A DNA stretch of 64,000 bases from Nitrospiria bacterium (GTDB lineage: Bacteria > Nitrospirota > UBA9217), in NCBI GenBank assembly GCA_919902495.1, contig CAKKRC010000072.1, positions 1-64,000 of the forward strand, given 5' to 3'. The stretch's first letter is position 1; each line of letters begins with the position of its first letter. A model generated the notes under the pieces. The model was not told where the DNA came from and searched no databases. It worked only from the letters and a program-made list of their open reading frames with translations. The position numbers and the translations under genes are program-made. This document shows, one piece after another, positions 62,477-62,776 of this stretch.

Positions 62477-62776
62477 ATGAAGATCGACTGCTACCTCTCC
62501 GAGCACTGCGGCTCCTATCACCAACTGCGGGAGAACATCGACCGCGCACTGGCGGAGTCTGACCTGAGGGCCGACGTTGCGTACCATACGATCCGGTATG
62601 ATGAAGCGGTCGAACGGGGGGTCATAGGTTCTCCGTCCATCTGGGTGAACGGGAAGGACCTCTTCGAGGTCGAAGGCTCCGCAGGCCTTGCCTGAAGGGC
62701 CTACCCCGATGAGTCCGGGCGGCTCACGAACGTCCCTTCAGTGCAACTACTGAAAGAACAGCTTCAAAAAGCATGA
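62477..62776 (+). CDS. thioredoxin-fold protein, probable selenoprotein (UGA at 62693-62695)
   Basis: Read through one TGA, the gene gives 99 residues and ends at the TGA 62774-62776. It has an N-terminal strand and active-site-like SEHCGSYHQL (Cys11; second Cys missing), a cis-Pro-type loop GSPSIWVNG, then GLA-U-RAY and NVPSVQLLKEQL. Small Cys homologues with a G-x-x-C-R-x-Y segment before a final helix are known to me, so TGA (codon 73) replaces a conserved Cys. The sequence after the TGA still fits the family. A clear SECIS-like hairpin follows it. The ATG 62477 gives the MKIDCYL start. Likely a redox protein; exact reaction unknown. Confidence 0.75.
62699..62723 (+). promoter_or_regulatory. 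candidate bacterial SECIS hairpin, second selenoprotein gene
   Basis: CCCG (62705-62708) pairs with CGGG (62716-62719) around the loop AUGAGUC, which contains GU. GCC (62699-62701) pairs with GGC (62721-62723) below an internal loop. The apical loop lies 14-20 bases after the TGA, the distance and loop type of the E. coli fdhF element. Confidence 0.6.

Follow-up and report, generated by a model that had tools for sequence, protein, structure and literature searches.

The gene at 62477..62776 on the forward strand of the window, by which we mean the whole 64,000-nucleotide stretch of DNA analysed here, carries an in-frame TGA at codon 73 (62693..62695), and the question is whether this codon is read as selenocysteine (Sec) and, if so, what the Sec residue might do in such a small protein. 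The open reading frame starts with ATG at 62477 and, in agreement with the original prediction, runs in frame past codon 73 for 26 sense codons to a normal stop, the TGA at 62774-62776. The product read in this way has 99 aa, with Sec as residue 73 and a predicted thioredoxin fold. On the evidence described below, we consider it very probable, with little room for doubt, that UGA 73 is a real selenocysteine codon and that the gene encodes a selenoprotein, an assignment based on sequence comparison.

Conservation of the UGA codon and the Sec machinery

A search of 396 Nitrospirota genomes found a homologue in 56 of them, and at least one homologue with an in-frame TGA in 52 of the 396. The TGA-containing Nitrospirota homologues were mostly 38-65% identical, and the named relatives were mainly Nitrospirae MAGs, with a few labelled as Thermoleophilia, Actinobacteria, Syntrophaceae and Deltaproteobacteria. 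When 58 distinct Sec genes, mostly from Nitrospirota, were aligned, the TGA fell at one shared column, which is followed in the translated homologues by the motif URxYxDESGRLxNVPSV. The part behind the TGA had been described as family-like, and we found that the pattern URxYxDESGRLxNVPSxxxL is kept among the Sec homologues. The Cys-type homologues come from Actinomycetota plasmids and from four genomes of Nitrospirota, and every one of them shows Cys (CRxY) at the TGA column; the claim that the TGA stands where relatives have Cys thus holds for 11/11 Cys homologues examined. The invariant residues of the alignment include Cys11 (codon TGC, 62507..62509), which occupies the thioredoxin active-site position, a GSP motif of the cis-Pro type, and Sec73-Arg74. 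Sec73 lies 62 residues past Cys11 in the sequence, within the C-terminal URxY motif. A homologue truly ending at codon 72 would have spoken against Sec, and none was found: the relatives have either the same TGA with its continuation, or Cys. In a tree of 69 rows, which are short and come from a sample drawn with a Sec query, the 58 Sec rows formed one group with support of 100/99.

Sec decoding had been judged plausible for this organism, and the assembly holding the window (3.67 Mb, 97% complete) indeed contains selA, selB, selC and selD. The tRNA-Sec gene (selC), with the anticodon TCA (UCA in RNA), scored 64 bits, over the cut-off; the selA match (610 bits) adjoins the selB match (384 bits) on the same contig, and selD was matched with 365 bits. 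This selD (G000:C28:84998-85912, L018) has an internal in-frame TGA, and SelD of this genome is therefore probably itself a selenoprotein. The second UGA-containing gene that had been reported in the window is also present, at 3141-3740 on the forward strand. It belongs to the DsbA family (PF01323, E 2.4e-30 when read through), its TGA, codon 15, provides the U of a UPYC motif, and 19 nt downstream of it there is a candidate hairpin.

Across the genomes searched, selA was found in 48 of the 52 that have the TGA gene, as compared with 127 of the 344 others (p = 1e-14, with kinship ignored). Four genomes with the TGA gene had no selA; two of these have selB, while of the others one genome is 74% complete and one, G141 (L104), is 99% complete and carries the TGA gene with no match to either selA or selB. 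We also observed that one relative (L110, 2995-3288, reverse strand) has TGA in the Cys11 column as well as in that of Sec73, with a weak bSECIS candidate after the first of them. It is possible that this gene encodes a double-Sec protein, and it is also possible that the TGA in the Cys11 column reflects a sequencing error; the double TGA would fit the idea that Cys11 and Sec73 work as a pair.

The SECIS element behind the UGA

The original prediction described a SECIS-like hairpin, CCCG-ATGAGTC-CGGG, whose 7-base loop lies 14-20 nt downstream of the TGA. This hairpin (62705..62719, forward strand) does exist and is the local minimum free energy fold of the window gene taken singly; the regional value of -14.0 kcal/mol belongs to it and not to the conserved stem described below. 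As a SECIS element it was rejected, with 46.6% of its cells paired across the alignment as compared with 46.1% in shuffles, and 211 of 500 shuffles reaching as high a value. The CCCG/CGGG stem is specific to the window gene and one close relative. The element under selection is, judging from the aligned sequences, a different stem-loop that overlaps this hairpin, at 62710..62726 on the forward strand.

The assignment of the 62710..62726 stem-loop as a conserved bSECIS draws on pairing, covariation, codon permutation and the contrast with Cys homologues. It consists of a 5' arm (62710-62715, TGAGTC), a loop (62716-62720, CGGGC) and a 3' arm (62721-62726, GGCTCA), so that a stem of 6 bp carries a loop of 5 nt with G in the second position, and the apical loop begins 20 nt past the UGA. 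An alignment of the 58 distinct genes, ungapped and taken from the TGA onward, was used to assess its conservation. Unguided RNAalifold recovered the inner five pairs of the stem. In this alignment, 93.1% of cells were paired, two-sided changes occurred in 4 of the 6 pairs, 0 of 500 shuffles reached the observed values, and the stem was 13.6 SD more stable than within-gene synonymous-codon permutations (z -13.6), figures that are not independent probabilities, as the genes are related. The closing pair, which joins a silent third codon position with position 1 of a variable codon, was C-G in 20 genes, U-A in 15, U-G in 3 and A-U in 2, and was unpaired in 18. Codons that would break the stem (CGC and CGT for Arg, GAA for Glu) are missing there. 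In the Cys homologues (n = 11), just 1-4 of the 6 stem pairs form.

Published limits for bSECIS elements are a loop of 3-9 nt, an upper stem of 4-16 bp, G in the first two loop positions and a distance of 16-37 nt from the UGA, and the element lies within all four of these. The conserved stem alone reaches about -6 kcal/mol here and -5.6 kcal/mol in the consensus, as against a quoted bSECIS limit of -7.5 kcal/mol or lower. A scan of the window at Rfam gathering thresholds gave no matches. The comparison shows that UGA 73 is recoded to Sec by SelB and tRNA-Sec acting on this stem-loop (loop NGGNN), and that translation then proceeds to the TGA stop at 62774.

These data bear on two other readings of the UGA. 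That it is read as Trp or another amino acid through a reassigned code or a leaky stop, which would equally conserve the downstream codons, is scarcely credible given that each of the 11 Cys homologues places Cys in this column, that the Sec machinery is complete and the stem-loop conforms to the bSECIS model, and that TGA terminates both the selenoprotein gene and the downstream thioredoxin gene. The same use of TGA as an ordinary stop elsewhere in the genome, including at the end of the selenoprotein gene itself, could be taken to mean that codon 73 is a stop as well, leaving either a 72-aa protein followed by an untranslated remainder or a pseudogene with a nonsense mutation. The 72-residue form also still matches the family profile NF049942 with 33.4 bits, having lost 14 bits. 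However, 58 distinct genes that share this TGA keep the 26 codons after it at the protein level, the Cys homologues read on through this position, TGA genes alone have a structured, covarying hairpin directly behind the TGA, and the TGA form tracks selA; we therefore regard an ordinary stop at codon 73 as highly improbable. With UGA 73 taken as a Sec codon, annotation that takes UGA for a stop is predicted to cut the genes of the Sec clade at codon 72.

Protein family and predicted fold

Read with Cys at the TGA, the product matched Pfam Thioredoxin_3 (PF13192) with 25.0 bits, against a cut-off of 24.8, and NCBIfam NF049942, the profile of the DF family, with 47.3 bits (E 1.5e-12). The latter alignment takes residues 4-94 onto positions 2-95 of the 96 in the profile and covers both conserved Cys/Sec positions. 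Replacement of Cys by Ala lowered the NF049942 score by 6.6 bits at residue 11 and by 6.0 bits at residue 73, and therefore both are conserved positions of the profile. Since the curated NF049942 cut-off of 70 bits is not reached, we assign the window protein to a sister subfamily of the DF family rather than to the family itself. Among the genomes of the same taxonomic family as the window, 0 of 14 had a protein over this cut-off.

A thioredoxin fold is predicted for the window protein. The AF2 model built on the alignment had a pLDDT of 94 and a pTM of 0.84, and its top Foldseek matches were thioredoxins (probability 0.99, E 6.5e-3, TM about 0.5), none of which reached E 0.001. The nearest solved chain by sequence profile was MTH895 (E 4e-4). 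The MerB domain PF03243 had no match within the window gene.

Gene neighbourhood, proposed role and relation to known systems

Directly upstream of the selenoprotein gene lies a carboxymuconolactone-decarboxylase (CMD)/AhpD-like gene (62079..62402, forward strand; PF02627, E 7.9e-17), which is upstream at nearly all loci checked in the same taxonomic family. This neighbour is without the usual Cys (GSVHSH), though it is kept nearly throughout the family. Downstream is a TrxC-like thioredoxin with a zinc ribbon and a WCLYC motif (62957..63415, forward strand; PF00085, E 7.9e-20, and PF21352), followed by a second TrxC-like gene (63464..63910, forward strand; PF00085, E 2.1e-14). The second copy, which adjoins the intact one, has lost the CxxC (WDKESALF), and its product could possibly be a non-catalytic partner. 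The same order of TrxC-like genes was found in L022 and L028, and L129 has a single such gene. A PerR/Fur-family regulator (61483..61929, reverse strand; best NCBIfam match PerR, E 8e-33, below the cut-off) runs divergently from the CMD gene, and a PerR-like regulator and rubrerythrin adjoin the locus both in the window and in L129. Between the PerR-like and CMD genes we observed a palindrome resembling a PerR box, TTAGAATTATTCTTG (61931-61945, 2 mismatches); two relatives did not show it, and its frequency within the window is near chance.

Other lineages have different surroundings. Their nearest same-strand genes included an ArsP-type permease (9/109), ArsR (7/109) and mercuric reductase, MerA (6/109), given here as raw counts. 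In four distinct sequences (L033, L036 at 1501-2484, L049 and L062), the Sec domain continues into a longer protein. The C-terminal extension is MerB in L033 and L036, with PF03243 matched at E ~1e-29, and the extensions of L049 and L062 were taken as MerB from sequence similarity. The Cys homologues are either fused to MerB or located beside MerR/ArsR genes, and some of them are on plasmids. The recurrence of gene, UGA and hairpin in the 58 distinct Sec genes, mostly from Nitrospirota, reveals a branch of small redox selenoproteins that has largely gone undescribed and whose genes often stand beside, or are fused to, mercury and arsenic resistance genes. A search of the window's own genome for MerB gave no match, and control searches were equally silent; a metal role is therefore not a direct consequence for the window organism.

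From conserved residues and gene context, the most likely role of the window protein would be a Cys/Sec step in redox chemistry or metal handling. Cys11 and Sec73 may form a redox couple of a selenenylsulfide/dithiol-like kind, or a pair that binds soft metals, and such a pair could serve both thiol redox and the detoxification of metal(loid)s and organometals. One explanation is that the protein is a selenoprotein whose Sec73 mainly acts as a ligand, binding or passing on mercury, arsenic or organic compounds of either in the manner of SaoC/UXX-star proteins, rather than as a redox catalyst. The MerB fusions among the homologues, the ArsP, ArsR and MerA neighbours in other lineages, and the occurrence of Cys homologues within mer/ars-type loci are consistent with this. 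However, the neighbours in the window's own lineage are oxidative-stress and thiol-redox genes, and the fold is predicted to be that of a thioredoxin, with Cys11 at the active-site position. We consider a mainly ligand role for Sec73 credible, if somewhat doubtful, and lean towards redox catalysis as its main role. Because the neighbours are the CMD/AhpD-like gene, the TrxC-like thioredoxins, rubrerythrin and the PerR-like regulator, a role in peroxide or thiol stress would be the likeliest one in the window's lineage. We tentatively suggest, as a possibility that falls short of a favoured one, that in a phylum-wide Nitrospirota subfamily the distant Cys11-Sec73 pair on a thioredoxin-like fold carries out a dedicated step in organometal or metalloid detoxification, including an unreported Sec-thioredoxin/MerB fusion enzyme, and that it was recruited to a PerR-type peroxide-stress cluster in the lineage of the window.

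The original description of the DF family, published in 2025, drew on Desulfosediminicola flagellatus; it gave one Sec member and reported neither a further homologue with TGA nor any conserved domain (PMC12013277). The family also appears in a 2026 review (PMC13188914). Neither a clade within Nitrospirota nor a fusion to MerB is mentioned in the literature examined, a scope outside which the SAO and Tso reports lie. The window protein resembles the DF family in its alignment over nearly the whole NF049942 profile and in the two conserved Cys positions that they have in common. Whereas the published Sec form came from one organism and had no conserved domain, the present clade counts 58 distinct Sec genes, has a predicted thioredoxin fold and includes fusions to MerB. 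A sister clade to this one-organism family is thereby described with dozens of Sec members, a covarying SECIS element and a predicted fold. The MerB fusion and the ArsP, MerA and ArsR neighbours of this clade offer a functional lead, and its members lend themselves to tests of what favours Sec over Cys in the chemistry of metals and peroxides.

Three further groups invite comparison. The Cys-type proteins of Actinomycetota plasmids, named thioredoxin family or 'alkylmercury lyase' proteins (L087-L093), share the domain but carry CRxY where the window protein has URxY, and two of them (L088 and L093) are fused to MerB; they differ from the window protein in having Cys instead of Sec and a 'CPN' active-site motif, and are without the SECIS hairpin. 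SaoL (NF040728), a MerB-like organometallic lyase of the SAO system, is the best NCBIfam match of the fused MerB domains, below the cut-off. Its Sec is given as part of a CU motif (PMC13188914), whereas the Nitrospirota fusions have Sec in the N-terminal thioredoxin-like domain. Finally, the Sec.1/Sec.2 thioredoxin-like selenoproteins (PF13192) share the Thioredoxin_3 relationship, at 24.5-25 bits, about the cut-off. In contrast to the CxU/UxC motifs of Sec.1/Sec.2, the window protein has its Sec in the C-terminal URxY, 62 residues past the active-site Cys.
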